Shown here piece by piece: positions 2,909-10,334 of a stretch of 10,334 nucleotides of DNA (position 1 is its first letter; the number at the start of each line of letters is the position of its first letter). Source of the stretch: Candidatus Hydrogenedentes bacterium CG07_land_8_20_14_0_80_42_17 (lineage in GTDB: Bacteria > UBA8481); contig PEWQ01000130.1 in assembly GCA_002780065.1 (NCBI GenBank), positions 1 to 10,334 on the forward strand. The letters run 5' to 3'. The notes below the pieces were generated by a model that worked only from the letters and a program-made list of their open reading frames with translations, was not told where the DNA came from and ran no database searches. The translations under genes were made by a program, and so were the position numbers.

Positions 2909-4167
2909 ACTCGTTTTTGAATAACTCGATTATGCCTGAGAATGGCGAGGCAATATTTTTTAACGCAATGCCTTCGCGCTCGGAGCCATATTCTTATATC
3001 TTCAGATCTCCTTCTGAGATACTGACTTTGACTGCCAAAAATGCTTACGCTCAGTTAAATAAAATCGAATCGGCAATAGGAAATGGAAAATATTGCGCCG
3101 GTTTTTTTTCTTATGAACTTAATTCTGTTTTTGATGGAATTGAGTGCTGGAACGACGAAGAGTGTTTAGGAATATGGGGAATTTACGACGGCGTAAGGCG
3201 CTATGATCATCTTTCAAAAGAGTGGACTGAAATAGGAAATGCACCGCCGTTCCCTGAATTATCAGAAATGAAAGATGCGAAGATAAGTTCTTTTTCACCG
3301 CATATTGATTTTGATGAATACAAGAATGTGATCGAACGTATTCATGAGGCAATACGCAGTGGAGCCACTTATCAGGTGAATTATACATTTCCAGTTTATT
3401 TAAAAATAGATGGTGATTTGTGGGGACTCTTTGTCAGACTGCTTGAAATGCAACCTGTTCCTTATGCTTCGTTTCAGGTTTGGCCGGATAAAAAAATACT
3501 TTCCATCTCTCCGGAACTTTTTATTCACCGCAGCGGCAGAAAAATTTTAATGAAACCTATGAAGGGAACTGCGTCCAGATGCATGAATTCGAAAGAGGAC
3601 GACGAAATGAAAAATTGGCTGAATAGAGATGAAAAGAACCGTGCGGAAAATATTATGATAGTTGATATGATAAGAAATGATCTCGGAAGAATCGGAACAG
3701 AGGTTAGAGTTGAAAACCTGTTTGAGATCGAAGAGTATCCAACGGTTTGGCAGATGACGTCCACGGTCTCATGCGAGGCAAAGGATGGCATCGAGTTGTC
3801 GGAAATATTGAGAGCGGTTTTTCCATCAGGCTCCGTCACCGGAGCTCCGAAGATCTCTACGATGAAGATGATCAGAGAACTCGAAAAAACTCCGCGCGAA
3901 GTTTACTGCGGAGCTATAGGTTATATTTTGTCGAAAGAAGAATTTCGTTTCAGCGTGCCTATTCGCACACTAGAGTCTGCTTCTGATAATAACTGGAGGC
4001 TTTCGGTCGGCAGTGGAATCACGATTGATTCGGACCCGACAAAAGAGTATGAAGAATGCATCGACAAGGCAAAATTCGTTATGAAACTAGTCGGAGCTGA
4101 CCAACGCGTCTTGAGCTGCGGCGAACACGCAGGTTCGAGGAGTGAACTAATGGAAGGAAAAAGATGA
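2905..4167 (+). CDS. pabB: Aminodeoxychorismate synthase component I
   Basis: Converts chorismate, with ammonia from a PabA-type glutaminase, to 4-amino-4-deoxychorismate for p-aminobenzoate and folate synthesis. The 420-residue protein carries the chorismate-binding fold: TYQVNYTFP (about 155-163), PMKGTASR (218-225), ENIMIVDMIRNDLGR (248-262), YPTVWQMTSTV (278-288), and PSGSVTGAPKISTMKMI (307-323). Lys220 in PMKGT marks aminodeoxychorismate synthases; anthranilate synthases usually have Ala there. The start overlaps the preceding stop by ATGA, indicating coupling. No PabA or PabC is seen in the window or fused to it. The last nine residues, after HAGSR (407-411), are encoded by an inserted segment. 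Without it the protein would end DSVPE. The tail lies beyond the catalytic fold, so activity should survive. Confidence 0.93.
   Translation: MNSFLNNSIMPENGEAIFFNAMPSRSEPYSYIFRSPSEILTLTAKNAYAQLNKIESAIGNGKYCAGFFSYELNSVFDGIECWNDEECLGIWGIYDGVRRYDHLSKEWTEIGNAPPFPELSEMKDAKISSFSPHIDFDEYKNVIERIHEAIRSGATYQVNYTFPVYLKIDGDLWGLFVRLLEMQPVPYASFQVWPDKKILSISPELFIHRSGRKILMKPMKGTASRCMNSKEDDEMKNWLNRDEKNRAENIMIVDMIRNDLGRIGTEVRVENLFEIEEYPTVWQMTSTVSCEAKDGIELSEILRAVFPSGSVTGAPKISTMKMIRELEKTPREVYCGAIGYILSKEEFRFSVPIRTLESASDNNWRLSVGSGITIDSDPTKEYEECIDKAKFVMKLVGADQRVLSCGEHAGSRSELMEGKR
4127..4140 (+). repeat. 14-bp direct repeat, left copy
   Basis: ACGCAGGTTCGAGG inside the 3' end of pabB, encoding part of HAGSR. It is identical to 4701-4714. 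The two copies bracket the DUF4258/DUF2283 pair, and sequence identity stops abruptly on both sides. Confidence 0.85.
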
Positions 4168-4418
4168 AGCCAATTAGACTTTCAGAACATGCAAAAGAAC
4201 AGTGCATTTTTAGAGGGACAACAGAAGAAGAAGTCATTGAGACAATAAAAACATCATTTTGGCAACCAATTGAATTGAAAAGACAGGAATGCAAAAAAGA
4301 TTTTGCCTTTGAACATGAATGGAATAAGAGATACTATAAGACTAAACAAGTGAGACCTATATTTGTCGAAGAAGATACAGAGATTGTGGTAATTACAATC
4401 TATACTTACTATTTTTGA
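4164..4418 (+). CDS. DUF4258 family protein, possible toxin of a two-gene module
   Basis: An 84-residue protein whose pattern I recognise as DUF4258 (PF14076-like): RLSEHAKEQ near the N-terminus (His9), FRGTTEEEV (Arg17), then WNKRYYKTKQVRPIFVEE (53-70) and a hydrophobic beta-strand end VVITIYTYYF. Biochemical function is not established as far as I know. Family members are small and often sit beside a DUF2283 gene, a layout like type II toxin-antitoxin pairs. The conserved His, Arg, Lys and Tyr residues would suit an RNase of RelE/BrnT-like fold, which is inference. Its start overlaps the pabB stop (ATGA) and GGAAGG (4152-4157) sits 6 bases upstream, so it borrows pabB transcription and probably coupled translation. 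It lies in the inserted segment. Confidence 0.8.
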   Translation: MKPIRLSEHAKEQCIFRGTTEEEVIETIKTSFWQPIELKRQECKKDFAFEHEWNKRYYKTKQVRPIFVEEDTEIVVITIYTYYF

Positions 4419-4435: not shown

Positions 4436-4651
4436 ATGAGAATAACTTATGATTCAGAGGTAGATGCTTTGTATATTCGTTTTATCGAAACAACGGTAAC
4501 AACTAATCATGTTGCGGAAGGTATTGCAGTAGATTATGATGTAGAGGGCAGAATTGCAGGGATAGAGATTCTTGATGCTGTAAAGAGTTTTGGCAGTAAG
4601 GATGTATTTAAAAAGGTAACGCTTGAGGATTTAGCACTGCATACAATGTGA
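4436..4651 (+). CDS. DUF2283 family protein, possible antitoxin partner
   Basis: A 71-residue protein with the DUF2283 (PF10049-like) pattern: RITYDSEVDALYIRF (2-16), then EGIAVDYDVEGRIAGIEILDA (28-48), and a short C-terminal helix VTLEDLALH. The family is a compact beta-rich fold of unknown function, frequently encoded next to DUF4258 genes. An antitoxin role is inferred from gene order, size and pairing, not from a demonstrated activity. The gene begins 17 bases after the DUF4258 stop with a strong AGGAGGT. A second gene translated more strongly than the first is what a toxin-first pair would need, since the antitoxin must be in excess. No DNA-binding helix-turn-helix is evident, so autoregulation would need another mechanism. 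Confidence 0.8.
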   Translation: MRITYDSEVDALYIRFIETTVTTNHVAEGIAVDYDVEGRIAGIEILDAVKSFGSKDVFKKVTLEDLALHTM

Positions 4652-4736: not shown

Positions 4737-6287
4737 ATGAGACCGGCATCAGTCACTTCTTTAAAAACTTATCTCACTTGTCCAAAAAAATATTATTACG
4801 CTTATATCGAATGGCTTCCGAAGGAAGATGACAAACCGTCTATTCGACTTTCCGTTTCGAATATACTTCATGCGGCATTGACTGCTTATCATGCTAGAGC
4901 TACTAAGGACTGGAATTTACTCGACCTTGCGCTAGTTGAGACATGGGACCCGAGACTCTTTTCCGATCTTTGCACATCAGCAAATGAATATCACAGAAGC
5001 AGATGGATTTTATGGCAGGCATGGTCTGCTATAAGCAGTGGAGAGACGGTCAGGTACGGTCAAAACGCCGAACTTGATTTCGGCGGCGGAAAGTTCAGGA
5101 GCCGAATCGACAGAATAGATCAGGAACCTGACGGTATTTCATTTGTGGAATATCATTTGGGAGACAGAGTCTCGGAGATCGATCAGTGGTCATTTCAAAT
5201 TTATGCGTCCATCTCGGCAAAGCTTATGAAACAGCCGGTAAAATCTGTCAGAGTAATTCAGCTCGGAGCTGAAGAACCGGAACTAAAATTAAATCCTGAA
5301 GATCCCTTCAAGCTAGAGAATGACATAAAACGTTTGCGGAGAGTTATCGATTCGGATCAAAGGCACATGCCTCATCCTGATCAGCATTGCCGTTTTTGCG
5401 CGTATTCGAATATATGCGATGCGGCAGAGTCGGTGCTCGGATCAGGCCGAATCAAACAATCTAACGAACTCTTTAGAATTTTCCGTGCGCTCGAGATACT
5501 TATTGAGGCTGGAGAATCGATAGACACTTTGAAGACACTGGCGCTCAAAGCAGTGAATCAAATTCATTTCGAAGCGAAACTTATTTGGATTGACGGCAGA
5601 GAAGTTGGACCTGAACTATTAGATGCGGCCAAGAAGAAGATCGAGATTGAAGGCGGAATAGTTGAAGAGGAAACAAAGCTGACTTTGCATGAAGGTGATT
5701 CACTAATCGTGCCGGTTTCAGATGTCGGATTCATAGTATTTCCGAAGGCAGTATCCAGAACAAGCGCAGAGATATTCGGGAGGAGTTTGAGAATAGCATG
5801 GGAGCGAACAAATAATTACATAGCTGCAACGACTGACGGGCTGACAGGACTTGCTCGAAGAGAAATTTTTGAAGATAAAATTAATAGATTATCCGGACAA
5901 GATTATACACTTATTATTTGCGACATAGATCGTTTCAAATTAATTAATGATACATACGGACATGAAGGAGGAGATGTTTGCCTCAAGATTTTTGCCGATA
6001 TTGTTCGCAATGAACGAGGAGTTGTTTCTTATCGAATTGGAGGTGAGGAATTTCTGCTTTTTATTCCAAGCAAAGATTTAGATTATTGCCGTAGAAAAGC
6101 CGAAGAGATAAGAAAAAATATAGCAGAACGTGAAATTATTTATGACGGCAAGAAGATACAGATGACAACATCTTTTGGAATTGCTTCCGGAGAAAATTTC
6201 GTTTCAGCCAGAGAAATATTAAAGAGAGCAGATGCCGCACTTTATAGAGCAAAAGAAAAAGGACGAAATTGTGTCGAAGTTTTTTGA
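4737..6287 (+). CDS. RecB/Cas4-like PD-(D/E)XK domain fused to GAF-like and GGDEF domains
   Basis: A 516-residue three-part protein. Residues 1-230 resemble the RecB/AddB/Cas4 nuclease family: SVTSLKTYLTCPKKYYY with Cys15, His45, RIDRID (Asp125), motif III as E138-Y139-H140, QIYA (154-157) and C218-x2-C221-x5-C227, which with Cys15 forms the four-cysteine Fe-S pattern. The motif III lysine is His, so cleavage is uncertain. Residues about 243-360 look like a GAF sensor. Residues 365-516 are a GGDEF domain: DGLTGLARR, CDIDRFKLINDTYGHEGGD (Asp396, Asn404, Asp413), RIGGEEF (433-439) and ADAALYRAKEKGRN. The cyclase site looks intact, so synthesis of c-di-GMP from two GTP is likely. There is no RxxD inhibitory site before GGEEF. 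No membrane span or signal peptide is seen, so it is cytoplasmic. It was probably coupled to pabB before the insertion and has no Shine-Dalgarno of its own. I know of no described protein with this order. Confidence 0.85.
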   Translation: MRPASVTSLKTYLTCPKKYYYAYIEWLPKEDDKPSIRLSVSNILHAALTAYHARATKDWNLLDLALVETWDPRLFSDLCTSANEYHRSRWILWQAWSAISSGETVRYGQNAELDFGGGKFRSRIDRIDQEPDGISFVEYHLGDRVSEIDQWSFQIYASISAKLMKQPVKSVRVIQLGAEEPELKLNPEDPFKLENDIKRLRRVIDSDQRHMPHPDQHCRFCAYSNICDAAESVLGSGRIKQSNELFRIFRALEILIEAGESIDTLKTLALKAVNQIHFEAKLIWIDGREVGPELLDAAKKKIEIEGGIVEEETKLTLHEGDSLIVPVSDVGFIVFPKAVSRTSAEIFGRSLRIAWERTNNYIAATTDGLTGLARREIFEDKINRLSGQDYTLIICDIDRFKLINDTYGHEGGDVCLKIFADIVRNERGVVSYRIGGEEFLLFIPSKDLDYCRRKAEEIRKNIAEREIIYDGKKIQMTTSFGIASGENFVSAREILKRADAALYRAKEKGRNCVEVF

Positions 6288-6340
6288 AAGGAAAAAAGGG
6301 TCAGGCATTAGTTTATTAGGTTTTATAAATATCTATTCTT

Positions 6341-6392
6341 GGAGGCACAGGCCTCGTTTTGGAGGCGCAGCCCTCGTTTTGGAGGCACAGGC
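6341..6392 (+). repeat. Tandem 20-bp repeats, two full units and one partial
   Basis: Unit 1 (6341-6360) reads GGAGGCACAGGCCTCGTTTT. Unit 2 (6361-6380) differs at two positions and unit 3 (6381-6392) is partial. Unit 1 can fold GAGGC/GCCTC around ACAG and is followed by GTTTT, so the array could also terminate transcription from the gene ending at 6287. The period is exactly 20 bp. Confidence 0.75.
6342..6360 (+). terminator. Possible intrinsic terminator of the upstream operon
   Basis: A 5-bp perfect stem GAGGC/GCCTC with an ACAG loop is followed by GTTTT, 55 bases after the GGDEF gene's stop. The stem is short and the T-run is only four bases, so termination would be weak. A weaker copy follows in unit 2. 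Confidence 0.3.
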
Positions 6393-6491: not shown

Positions 6492-8066
6492 ATGATTATT
6501 ATTGCTGAAGCTGTATTGATACTTCATTCATTATTTTTTTCTACAGAACTCTTTCGGATTGCCGCAGTGCTTTCGGCATTATTTGCACTCTTTTCTATTT
6601 CGTTTGGGAAATTTAATTCGAGAAGATTTTTTTTATTTTCTGCGTTAGCCTTGGGAGGCATAACAAGTGTATTGTTCGGAACTGCGCCGGGACCATCTGC
6701 AGAGGCAATTGGAATCCTGCTTGGAGCTTGGGGTTGGTACAGTTTAGGTTCACTTCGAAATTCAGAGAATAAATTTAACATTCATTTAGGATTTTGTTCT
6801 GCAGTGACAGCAGTATTGCTGGCGATGCTTTCCGCTCTGCAATTTCTGATTACCGAAAGACCTTCGTCATTATGGTGGCTTTCACCAATTGATTTCGGAA
6901 TTACAATGCTTATTGTTGGATTTTACGGATTGAAATCTATTAATAATTCGAAATGGAAGTTTGCCTACATTCTTATTTTAGCATCCAGCATTGCATTGAC
7001 TTCATCACGAGGAATTCTCGCTGCATTCATAGCGGGCATTTTTATCATTTCCGATATTTCATTTAAACGTAGAGCACTTCTAATAATTATTGCGCTGACC
7101 ATCTCTCTTCCAATTATAATAAAGCGGATATCGAACGATCCGTTTGCATGGAACAGAACCCGGATTTACGCGTGCGCTTTAAATTTGATTGAAGAACGTC
7201 CGCTTGCAGGTTGGGGGCTTGGCTCGTTCGATGCTGTTTCTCAGCGAGCGCAGTTGCCGGACCCGACGGAAATACGGAGAATGAGGACTCCTATTCATGC
7301 ACATAACGATGCTCTTCAAATTCTTGCAGAACTTGGCATTCCAATCGGTTCCGCAGTTATTGCAGAATTTATTCTTGCGTGGGCTCTGCTCTATCGAAAA
7401 AGACAGCAGGTTGAATTTGCGATTGTCACTTCATTGTTTGTTGTATCGCTCTTCTATTTTCCGTTTCAACTTGCGCTCCCGCTCTTTTCAGTGATGTTTT
7501 GTTTAGGAGCAGGACTTGACTCCGGTTTTTTTCAACGAAATGTTAATCCTTTTATTCTGCCTGCTATGGCTCTTTTGGTGTATGCTTACGGCATGATAGT
7601 AAATGATCCGAGCATAGCAATATTCGATGCGAGGCTCGCAATAACAAAAATGCAAAATGCCGTAGGAGTAAAGCGCATGATAGAGCTCGAACCTCAACGG
7701 CCGGAATCATATTTGAATCTAGGAATATTTACCGCGCAAACAGGAAATAGCTCATCTACAATCTATGCATTCGAAAAAGCTGTCGGGCTTGCGCCTACAA
7801 GAACTGCGATTAGATTTGATCTTGCACAAGCATGGCTATGGCATTCCACTTTTCTTAACTCTCATCAGGAATCCGAGCATGCCAGAAAGATTGCAATGTG
7901 CCACATGGGTTTAATACGGGCAATAGAGCCTTTGTCGTTAGCAGGGCTCGATGCGGCTGGAGACACAATCGGCTTTATGCTCGCGTCTTCAATTCTGGAT
8001 AGAATTGAAATTAGTTCCGGAAGCTCGGCGGATGTAAAACCATTGAGAAGGAGACTCGAGTTTTGA
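6492..8066 (+). CDS. O-antigen ligase / Wzy-like membrane protein with C-terminal TPRs
   Basis: Probable inner-membrane enzyme that joins or polymerises lipid-linked polysaccharide, in the O-antigen ligase (WaaL/Wzy_C, PF04932-like) superfamily. The 524-residue protein has about ten or more hydrophobic spans between residues 1 and 370. The family signature is ALTSSRG (Arg173), then NRTRIYACALNLIEERPLAGWGLGSF (221-246), and the periplasmic loop PIHAHNDALQILAELG (267-282) with His269 and His271. Residues about 376-505 are soluble and TPR-like, with ESYLNLGIFTAQTGNSSSTIYAFEKAVGLAP (405-434) a good repeat. TPR tails occur in other bacterial ligase-family proteins. The exact substrate (O-antigen, exopolysaccharide or protein glycan) cannot be read from the sequence. 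The ATG at 6492 lacks a strong Shine-Dalgarno. The stop overlaps the kinase start as TTGA. Confidence 0.85.
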   Translation: MIIIAEAVLILHSLFFSTELFRIAAVLSALFALFSISFGKFNSRRFFLFSALALGGITSVLFGTAPGPSAEAIGILLGAWGWYSLGSLRNSENKFNIHLGFCSAVTAVLLAMLSALQFLITERPSSLWWLSPIDFGITMLIVGFYGLKSINNSKWKFAYILILASSIALTSSRGILAAFIAGIFIISDISFKRRALLIIIALTISLPIIIKRISNDPFAWNRTRIYACALNLIEERPLAGWGLGSFDAVSQRAQLPDPTEIRRMRTPIHAHNDALQILAELGIPIGSAVIAEFILAWALLYRKRQQVEFAIVTSLFVVSLFYFPFQLALPLFSVMFCLGAGLDSGFFQRNVNPFILPAMALLVYAYGMIVNDPSIAIFDARLAITKMQNAVGVKRMIELEPQRPESYLNLGIFTAQTGNSSSTIYAFEKAVGLAPTRTAIRFDLAQAWLWHSTFLNSHQESEHARKIAMCHMGLIRAIEPLSLAGLDAAGDTIGFMLASSILDRIEISSGSSADVKPLRRRLEF

Positions 8067-9046
8067 TTCGCTCGGTAACGTGGGTTATTGCGGGGATTTT
8101 AATTCTGCTCCTAGTAATGGCGCTCGGCCTGTGGCTGGCTTTAACGCTTCCAAAAAATGATCCTCGAATTTTAATCGAGTTTTACTCAGTGATAATGACA
8201 TCGCTTTTGCTTGTCGCAATAGCAGTTTCAGTTGGAATGCTGCATTCATTGAGGCGAGACAAAAAAGCGGTTGCTGAATTGGTCGAAGCGCTGACATCTC
8301 GGAAACGAATCCATCAAAATAACGATTGGACGAATTTCGCTTCGGCTGTGAATATGACGATTGAAGAGCTGAATAGGTTGGAAAAAAGTTTGATCGAGAC
8401 TGAACTTGAGAAGGGAAGAGACGAGAGAATATTGGCGATAGGACGGCTTGCAGCAGGCATTGCGCACGAAATCAGAAATCCAATCACTAATGTTATCGGG
8501 TATGCGGCGCTTCTTAAGGAACATGTTTCTGATGAAACAATTCTTCGCGATTTATCGACAATAGAAGAGGAAGCCAGGAGATGCGAGTCGATTACCGATT
8601 CGATTCTGGCATTTTCGAGAACTCCAAAACTGAAGTTGGAACCGATTACAGCAGAGGAAATTGTTCCTCGAATTGAAGGTATTGAAATTGAAGTTGAAGA
8701 CGATAAAACGCGCTTCAATGCAGACAGAGCCTTGATGTCGAGAGTGATGGAAAATCTTGTTTCGAATTCCAAGGACGCCGGTGCGAAGCGAGTGAAGATA
8801 GTTGCTGGAAGAAAAGTATCGAAGATTGAATTTGAAGTTATAGATGACGGACGAGGAATTTCGAGTTCGATAATTGAGCGGCTTTTCGAACCGTTCGCGA
8901 CATTTAAACGCGGTGGTTTGGGATTGGGGCTGGCGATTTCGAAGGGCGTAGTTGAGGCGCATGGAGGCAGTATATCTGCATCGAATAGACCTGAAGGCGG
9001 AGCTCGGTTCGAGATCCTTATTCCAATTTCAGGAGGGAAAATATAG
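8063..9046 (+). CDS. Membrane sensor histidine kinase, NtrB-like
   Basis: Autophosphorylates on a histidine and passes the phosphate to a response regulator, most likely the one encoded next. The 327-residue protein has two membrane spans (about 5-29 and 38-60) with a very short outer loop. A cytoplasmic linker (about 62-118, possibly HAMP-like) follows, then the H-box AAGIAHEIRNPIT with His135, the N-box around Asn235 (ENLVSNSKDA), G1 DDGRGI (261-266), FEPF (275-278) and G2 GLGLGLAISK (285-294). All catalytic motifs are present. With almost no periplasmic domain it may sense the membrane or an internal cue. The start is TTG, overlapping the ligase stop as TTGA. The next in-frame ATG at 8117 would cut the first span, so TTG is preferred. 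Confidence 0.92.
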   Translation: MIRSVTWVIAGILILLLVMALGLWLALTLPKNDPRILIEFYSVIMTSLLLVAIAVSVGMLHSLRRDKKAVAELVEALTSRKRIHQNNDWTNFASAVNMTIEELNRLEKSLIETELEKGRDERILAIGRLAAGIAHEIRNPITNVIGYAALLKEHVSDETILRDLSTIEEEARRCESITDSILAFSRTPKLKLEPITAEEIVPRIEGIEIEVEDDKTRFNADRALMSRVMENLVSNSKDAGAKRVKIVAGRKVSKIEFEVIDDGRGISSSIIERLFEPFATFKRGGLGLGLAISKGVVEAHGGSISASNRPEGGARFEILIPISGGKI

Positions 9047-9056
9047 AGTGGGAAAT

Positions 9057-10334
9057 ATGGAAGAAGAAGACAAAATACTTGTAGTAGATGACGAAGCCAA
9101 AATAAGAGAACTTGTATGTCGGGCCTTAGAGGGTAGAACTCTAGACACTGCCGCGACTGCTGATGAAGCTCGAAGTAAGCTTTCAGATGCGCGACTGGTG
9201 CTCTTGGATCTGAAACTTGCAGGCGATGACGGGATGGAACTTCTTAACGAATTTAGGGAGAATAGACCTGAAGTGCCGGTGATAATTATGACGGCGTTTG
9301 CGAGTATTGAAAGCGCTGTTTCTGCGATGAAAGCAGGAGCTTGCGACTACATCACTAAACCGTTCTCTTCACTTGACGATTTGAGGCTCAAAGTTGATCG
9401 AGCTTTGCGCGAAGCAAAATTGGAGATCGAGAACAGAAAACTCAGAAACCTTCTTATTGAGCAGGACAGTTTCGAGGAGATGATTGGCGGCTCTGCTTTA
9501 ATGAATAAGGTTTACAACATGATTGATAGGGTTGCAGATGGAGAATCCACCATTCTAATCGAGGGCGAGAGCGGGACAGGGAAAGAACTTGTTGCAAGAG
9601 CTATTCACCGCAGGAGCTCTAGACAAAAAAAATCGTTTATTGAGATTAATTGCGCGGCAATTCCGGAAAATTTATTGGAGAGCGAATTATTCGGATACGA
9701 AAAAGGCGCATTTACCGGCGCATATAAACAGAAAAAAGGTTTATTTGAAACTGCTCAGGGCGGGACGGTTTTTTTGGATGAGATAGCGGAGATGCCGAAG
9801 GAACTCCAAGTTAAATTGCTGAGAGTTATAGAAGAAAAAAGTTTTACGCGCTTGGGTGGAACATCTTTGACAAGGATAGATTCACGTATTATTGCGGCGA
9901 CAAATAGGGATTTAAAACAAGCAGTAAAGAACGGAGAATTTCGGGAGGATTTATATTACCGGTTGGCTGTGATACAAATTGCTCTTCCACCTCTCAGAGA
10001 TAGAGTCGGAGATTTAGAAAAACTTTTCAAGTTCTGGGTGCCGAATGTTACATTTGAAAAAGAAGCGTGGGAAATAATCATGAGTTACAATTGGCCCGGC
10101 AATGTTAGAGAAGTAAAGAATTTTGTTGAAAGAATTAACCAGCTTGGAATTAAGCGCGTGACGGTATCCGATCTGCCTGATGATTTTTCAGGCAGTACGT
10201 CAGGAAGTTTAAGGATTTCAGGTTCGCTTGTTGAAATGGTGGATTCTTACGAACGCTCGATAATTAAACAGGTTTTAGAAGATTCAAACGGCGTTAGAAT
10301 AGATGCGGCGAATCGATTGGGAGTAACCAGGCAG
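9057..10334 (+). CDS. Sigma-54-dependent response regulator, NtrC family (3' end outside window)
   Basis: Transcription activator partnered with the upstream kinase; the frame is open to the window edge (426 codons). The receiver domain (about 5-120) has the acidic pair Asp11-Asp12, phospho-acceptor Asp51 and Lys101. The AAA+ domain (about 140-365) has Walker A GESGTGKE (170-177), the sigma-54-contact loop GAFTGA (217-222), Walker B GGTVFLDE (235-242), and ATNRDL, then LPPLRDR (310-316) and WPGNVREVKN (346-355). A Fis-type DNA-binding helix-turn-helix begins near 398 and is cut at GVTRQ. The stretch between LPPLRDR and WPGN is about 29 residues, shorter than usual. The start is ATG 9057, or GTG 9048 in the same frame. 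The latter is better placed for AGGAGGG at 9031-9037. Targets are unknown; the neighbouring polysaccharide gene is a reasonable guess. Confidence 0.93.
   Translation, partial: MEEEDKILVVDDEAKIRELVCRALEGRTLDTAATADEARSKLSDARLVLLDLKLAGDDGMELLNEFRENRPEVPVIIMTAFASIESAVSAMKAGACDYITKPFSSLDDLRLKVDRALREAKLEIENRKLRNLLIEQDSFEEMIGGSALMNKVYNMIDRVADGESTILIEGESGTGKELVARAIHRRSSRQKKSFIEINCAAIPENLLESELFGYEKGAFTGAYKQKKGLFETAQGGTVFLDEIAEMPKELQVKLLRVIEEKSFTRLGGTSLTRIDSRIIAATNRDLKQAVKNGEFREDLYYRLAVIQIALPPLRDRVGDLEKLFKFWVPNVTFEKEAWEIIMSYNWPGNVREVKNFVERINQLGIKRVTVSDLPDDFSGSTSGSLRISGSLVEMVDSYERSIIKQVLEDSNGVRIDAANRLGVTRQ

Follow-up and report, generated by a model that had tools for sequence, protein, structure and literature searches.

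A putative diguanylate cyclase whose N-terminal RecB/Cas4-type domain is likely a pseudo-nuclease

The window, a complete contig of 10,334 nucleotides, encodes a 516-amino acid protein in which a four-cysteine RecB/Cas4-type nuclease fold is followed by a weakly GAF-like region and an intact GGDEF domain. The reading we favour, with confidence just short of even, is that of a cytosolic diguanylate cyclase with a recruited input domain of this type, a pseudo-nuclease that binds nucleic acid and gates the synthesis of c-di-GMP. The N-terminal PD-(D/E)XK module would be stapled by an Fe-S cluster bound to four cysteines, and in the window's phylum it would have become a pseudo-nuclease by losing the catalytic Lys and the Q motif while keeping the fold and the cysteines. 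Its most likely ligands would be single-stranded nucleic acid or the ends of nucleic acids. The signal would pass through the GAF-like region, with its signalling helix, to dimerisation of the GGDEF domain and c-di-GMP output, which probably has surface functions (pili, polysaccharide) as its target.

Domain architecture of the fusion protein

The frame runs unbroken from the ATG at 4737 to the TGA at 6285-6287. On residues 4-228 the Pfam profile PF12705 (PDDEXK_1) matched with E=3.3e-19 (70 bits; cut-off 22), PF01930 (Cas_Cas4) matched residues 112-227 above its cut-off (E=1.4e-7), and hhalign of the domain against solo and tandem nucleases gave a probability of 100%. The NCBIfam Cas4 model TIGR00372 scored 43 bits, under its cut-off of 65, and no cas genes, including cas1/cas2, were found among the window genes searched; judged by these profiles, the domain resembles Cas4 but does not qualify as a certified Cas4.

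A structure model of residues 1-237 (pLDDT 61, pTM 0.52) was obtained from a 12-row alignment including eleven viral relatives, the usable rows of which were found with solo-nuclease seeds; with the full-length fusion alignment as the query, viral contigs matched at the GGDEF side only. Its fold matches in the PDB were ACE1, RecE, AdnAB, AddAB, Dna2 and Cas4. The AdnAB nuclease domain aligned over 214 residues with Z 14.7 (VIA-align), and structure comparison gave Z 13.8 for ACE1 and Z 12.3 for AddB. The single-sequence model of the full-length fusion was unusable (pLDDT 36).

Table 1 Features of the window and of the fusion protein
Feature	Position (nt)	Strand	Basis or remark
Fusion gene: 4-Cys PD-(D/E)XK (pseudo)nuclease, GAF-like linker, GGDEF diguanylate cyclase (predicted)	4737..6287	+	516 aa
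PD-(D/E)XK / RecB-Cas4-type domain, residues 4-228	4746..5420	+	PF12705, hhalign, fold search
Cys15, first predicted Fe-S ligand	4779..4781	+	Cys in 41/41 aligned domains
Asp125, metal-binding Asp of IDRID motif, kept	5109..5111	+	Asp in 41/41
Degenerate catalytic motif E138-Y-H140-L-G replacing D-Y-K-T-G	5148..5162	+	41-domain alignment
Ser152 at Q position of QxxxY motif; Tyr156 kept	5190..5192	+	Gln in 29/39 relatives
Cys218, Cys221, Cys227, predicted Fe-S ligands	5388..5417	+	each Cys in 41/41
GAF-like region, residues 240-360, weakly supported	5454..5816	+	Pfam scan of homologues, hhalign
GGDEF domain, residues 364-511; DIDRFKLIND and GGEEF intact	5826..6269	+	PF00990, motifs
O-antigen ligase-like (Wzy_C) protein, C-terminal TPR	6492..8066	+	next gene; order kept in G001
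Membrane sensor histidine kinase	8063..9046	+	homologue at matching place in G001
Sigma-54 dependent response regulator; runs off contig end, start approximate	9040..10334	+	57% identical to G001 counterpart

The cyclase end is clear-cut: PF00990 matched residues 364-511 above its cut-off (E=1.3e-31), and the DxD, ND and GGEEF motifs and the guanine-contact Asp are invariant across ten aligned fusion members. We take the roles of the metal and guanine-contact residues to be those assigned in PleD. Since all of them are kept in all ten members, diguanylate cyclase activity is expected, that is, the fusion GGDEF should make c-di-GMP. The inhibitory RxxD I-site is present in phylum B, one of the two other phyla with fusions, and in genome G388 of phylum A; it is absent in the window, in the related genome G001 and in family f107 of phylum A. 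Nine PilZ domains, candidate c-di-GMP receptors, are encoded in the window's genome. A membrane-anchored protein with an HD-GYP-type (HD_5) domain and a weak GAF match (1457-2908, + strand), a likely c-di-GMP phosphodiesterase, lies 1.8 kb upstream of the cyclase.

The sequence-only reading had described one uninterrupted polypeptide with a RecB/Cas4-like fold, a four-cysteine layout at the N-terminus, a GAF-like middle domain and a complete C-terminal GGDEF, in that order. The single frame and the cysteines (C15, C218, C221 and C227) were confirmed, and Pfam matches on the 516-aa protein and the homologues agree with the order. PF12705 (E=3e-19) and the AdnAB, ACE1 and AddAB fold matches place residues 1-230 inside the PD-(D/E)XK fold by both profile and structure comparison, and the complete GGDEF stands on PF00990 and its intact motifs. 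The GAF-like assignment is weakly supported: hhalign of the middle region against GAF gave a probability of 65% and GAF_2 appeared in 3/10 homologues (best E=1.7e-4, under its cut-off where shown), but no GAF profile in Pfam matched the window protein.

Conservation of the nuclease-like domain

The catalytic site was compared in an alignment of 41 domains, 12 from fusions and 29 from solo, tandem or helicase-linked proteins. The catalytic Lys is found in 39/39 domains outside the window's phylum and also in each of the eleven viral relatives, some of which are near-identical; it is replaced by His140 in the window and by Val in G001. Position 138 is Asp in the same 39/39 domains and in G001, and Glu in the window. 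At the Q motif position Ser is found in the window and Arg in G001, the two genomes of the phylum. Measured against the pattern of an active nuclease (D...(D/E)xK with the Lys, plus the Q motif), the window domain falls short, with D125 and E138 present. Because His140 stands for the catalytic Lys and Ser152 for the Q motif, an active nuclease is unlikely here and the domain is likely a pseudo-nuclease; the earlier reading had the fold right but overlooked the loss of the Lys and of the Q motif. The active site is intact in all ten fusions of the other two phyla, which look catalytically competent, and the intact site is probably the ancestral state of the fusion.

The four cysteines, in a 1 + 3 pattern, are predicted to bind an Fe-S cluster. 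As they are kept in 41/41 domains, including the two that lack the Lys, the fold appears to be constrained even though catalysis is not. The N-terminal domain also seems to be under selection, since it is retained with invariant cysteines at about 28% identity (residues 1-230) between two families of the window's phylum.

Tandem proteins with two RecB/Cas4-type nuclease domains were also encountered (L154, 760-2214; L155, 757-2208; similar ones in G030, G177, G232 and G240). The first domain of L154 and of L155 is without the IDRID and DYKTG motifs and keeps some cysteines in the Fe-S arrangement. A 1336-aa frame in G411 (L275) carries about five consecutive PDDEXK_1-type matches.

Distribution and origin of the fusion

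The sequence-only reading had suggested a search for homologues of the same domain order, and a profile built from the two N-termini of the window's phylum led to fusions in two further phyla. The fusion is not unique to the window genome: the nuclease and GGDEF occur in this order in 12 genomes from three phyla, and PDDEXK_1 and GGDEF both matched in 10/10 members scanned. The sole other genome of the window's phylum compared, G001, has a 528-aa homologue of identical domain order and about 30% identity. All seven genomes of phylum A carry the fusion, which is complete in G106, G242, G370 and G387, cut at a contig end in G388, spread across two contigs in G386 and interrupted by Ns in G389. 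In phylum B it occurs in 3/16 genomes (G213, G391 and G394), all of one family. Three overlapping samples of 385-387 genomes each, one of them enriched for near-complete genomes, yielded no further fusions. Other candidates of 480-600 aa turned out to be tandem or plain nucleases with no cyclase fused, and a scan of genome contigs gave one match, which was unrelated.

In the nuclease-domain tree the fusions fall in four groups and a single clade is mildly rejected (AU p=0.032), whereas the GGDEF tree is compatible with a single fusion clade (p=0.81). These trees are compatible with a single origin or with a few, and repeated formation of the fusion is possible.

Genetic context

The window and G001 are syntenic: the fusion is followed by the O-antigen ligase-like gene, the histidine kinase and the sigma-54 response regulator. 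The neighbours in the window are envelope and regulatory genes rather than genes of DNA repair or defence. In phylum A the context is PFK-SurA-CheC-Memo, and in family f107 the fusion gene overlaps or abuts the Memo gene before it and the PpiC rotamase gene after it. In phylum B the fusion lies between TldD/PmbA and YceG/MltG (TldD-MltG-deacetylase context). No clear DNA repair, recombination or defence genes were found among the fusion neighbours in the three phyla, and the window gave no Rfam matches.

Several further observations concern the surroundings of the gene. At L121, L128 and L129 of phylum A the fusion is preceded at close range by a gene of the Memo family; no gene intervenes in f107, whereas an RNase E/G gene does in f261. 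On contig C45 of G001 (L031/L032) two pilin-like genes are located a short way upstream of the fusion; FtsK and a ComEC-like competence gene follow about 7-14 kb downstream. In the window, a DUF4258-like gene (4164-4418, + strand) and, immediately after it, a DUF2283 gene (4436-4651, + strand) lie just upstream, overlap the end of pabB and have the appearance of a small toxin-antitoxin-type pair. A 20-bp unit (TTGGAGGCACAGGCCTCGTT) is repeated in 2.7 copies at 6339-6392, in the interval that separates the fusion from the gene after it.

The input signal and alternative explanations

A nucleic-acid-binding input is favoured on three grounds: the nearest-fold relatives bind DNA ends, the nuclease fold has persisted after the loss of its chemistry, and the part that stays constant and active is the cyclase end. 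The nearest folds to the window domain are those of AdnAB, AddAB and Dna2, all binders of DNA ends; for human DNA2, the Fe-S cluster is reported to shape the DNA-binding tunnel (PMC7311471). The main weakness of this reading is the envelope and regulatory, rather than DNA-related, character of the neighbours. Loss of the catalytic motif may also mean that DNA affinity was lost, the GAF-like signalling link is weak (hhalign 65%), and a possible multiple origin of the fusion speaks against the reading too.

The main rival is an Fe-S sensor of redox state, oxygen or NO, in which the nuclease fold is no more than a scaffold and a labile cluster switches the cyclase when it is oxidised or lost; we consider it unlikely, if worth keeping in mind. 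It would explain why the four cysteines survive and the catalytic residues do not, and control by gas or redox sensors is common among diguanylate cyclases and c-di-GMP phosphodiesterases. However, the same cysteines are invariant in 29/29 related plain nucleases, where the cluster is mainly structural, so their retention alone is no proof of redox sensing and structural need suffices to account for it. The Fe-S cluster of human DNA2 is structural, and redox control of the enzyme does not rely on it (PMC7311471).

Less probable again is an ordinary diguanylate cyclase whose vestigial or protein-binding N-terminus localises the enzyme and senses nothing. The envelope and regulatory neighbours and the decay of the catalytic motifs in the window lineage would fit it, but the N-terminal domain, 230 residues long and invariant in its four cysteines, has persisted at about 28% identity across two families, which would hardly be expected of a vestige.

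The sequence-only reading had also allowed that the messenger could gate the nuclease module. Such a c-di-GMP-regulated nuclease, with the cyclase or its product controlling DNA cleavage by the N-terminus, is compatible with the intact active sites of the ten fusions of the other two phyla and with the I-site kept in phylum B and G388. For the window protein it cannot hold in the usual way, because both members of its phylum (2/2) have other residues in place of Lys140 and Gln152 and the I-site is absent there, and overall we regard it as improbable.

A defence sensor, in which nucleic acid from an invader would set off the synthesis of a cyclic dinucleotide in the manner of Cas10, is very improbable. 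A nuclease and a GGDEF-fold cyclase do share one chain, as in Cas10, and PADLOC matched the Cas4-type domain, but no cas, CBASS or effector genes were found near the fusion, and its stable presence across whole small phyla is unlike that of defence islands; neither neighbours nor PADLOC support a CRISPR or defence context. An assembly chimera of two genes, a concern for a 2.39 Mb genome assembled in 207 contigs, of which the window is one, can be set aside almost with certainty, as can a frameshift, since independent genomes of three phyla have the identical full-length order and one of them is syntenic with the window.

Extended to the whole family, the favoured nucleic-acid-binding reading becomes more tentative: these proteins would be nucleic-acid-gated diguanylate cyclases in which the nuclease domain acts as a sensor of DNA or RNA, with cleavage in two phyla and binding alone in the window's. 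Members with intact and with lost active sites reside in separate phyla and offer a clean test of whether binding or cleavage controls the second messenger.

Comparison with known systems

Known inputs of c-di-GMP cyclases are light, gases, redox state and small molecules. In the open-access literature we found no report of a DNA-processing fold as such an input, and no GGDEF protein or diguanylate cyclase with a PDDEXK, Cas4, RecB or nuclease domain or an Fe-S cluster, in agreement with the earlier statement that no system of this order has been described. The fusion family illustrates a route from a repair-type nuclease to a signalling module, and may wire DNA handling straight to second-messenger signalling.

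With the RecB/AddB/AdnAB/Cas4/Dna2 branch (PF12705, PF01930) the window domain shares the fold, the four cysteines, the IDRID Asp, the Tyr and the motif order. It differs in the His or Val in place of Lys and in the lost Q motif in the window's phylum, and the fusion has a cyclase partner instead of a helicase, Cas1 or Cas2. A survey of Cas4 proteins found the catalytic motifs conserved throughout (PMC5704561), in contrast to the window domain, which recalls TP1, the nucleocapsid protein of Thermoproteus tenax virus 1, an inactivated Cas4 with its nucleic-acid-binding role kept (PMC4625639, PMC5704561). Both are Cas4-like nuclease folds, TP1 without catalysis and the window domain probably so, but TP1 is a virion protein and the fusion a predicted signalling enzyme.

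GAF-GGDEF cyclases have in common with the fusion a complete C-terminal GGDEF domain with GGEEF and the metal and guanine contacts, preceded by a GAF-like region that is weakly supported in the fusion; the window protein differs in its nuclease-fold input and in having no I-site.

Cas10 contains an HD nuclease domain. No HD domain was detected in the fusion, the Cas10 palm2 profile gave 22.6 bits against a cut-off of 27, and no type III partners were found among the window genes searched. Cas10/Csm1 of type III CRISPR systems likewise combines a nuclease and a GGDEF-derived cyclase fold in one chain, and makes a nucleic-acid-activated second messenger (PMC3150331, PMC10910872). The divergent palm there yields cyclic oligoadenylate and Cas partners are involved, whereas the fusion, with a PD-(D/E)XK fold where Cas10 has its HD nuclease, carries a canonical GGDEF. 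If the family is indeed gated by nucleic acid, it would represent a bacterial counterpart of Cas10 or cGAS that uses a canonical GGDEF enzyme.
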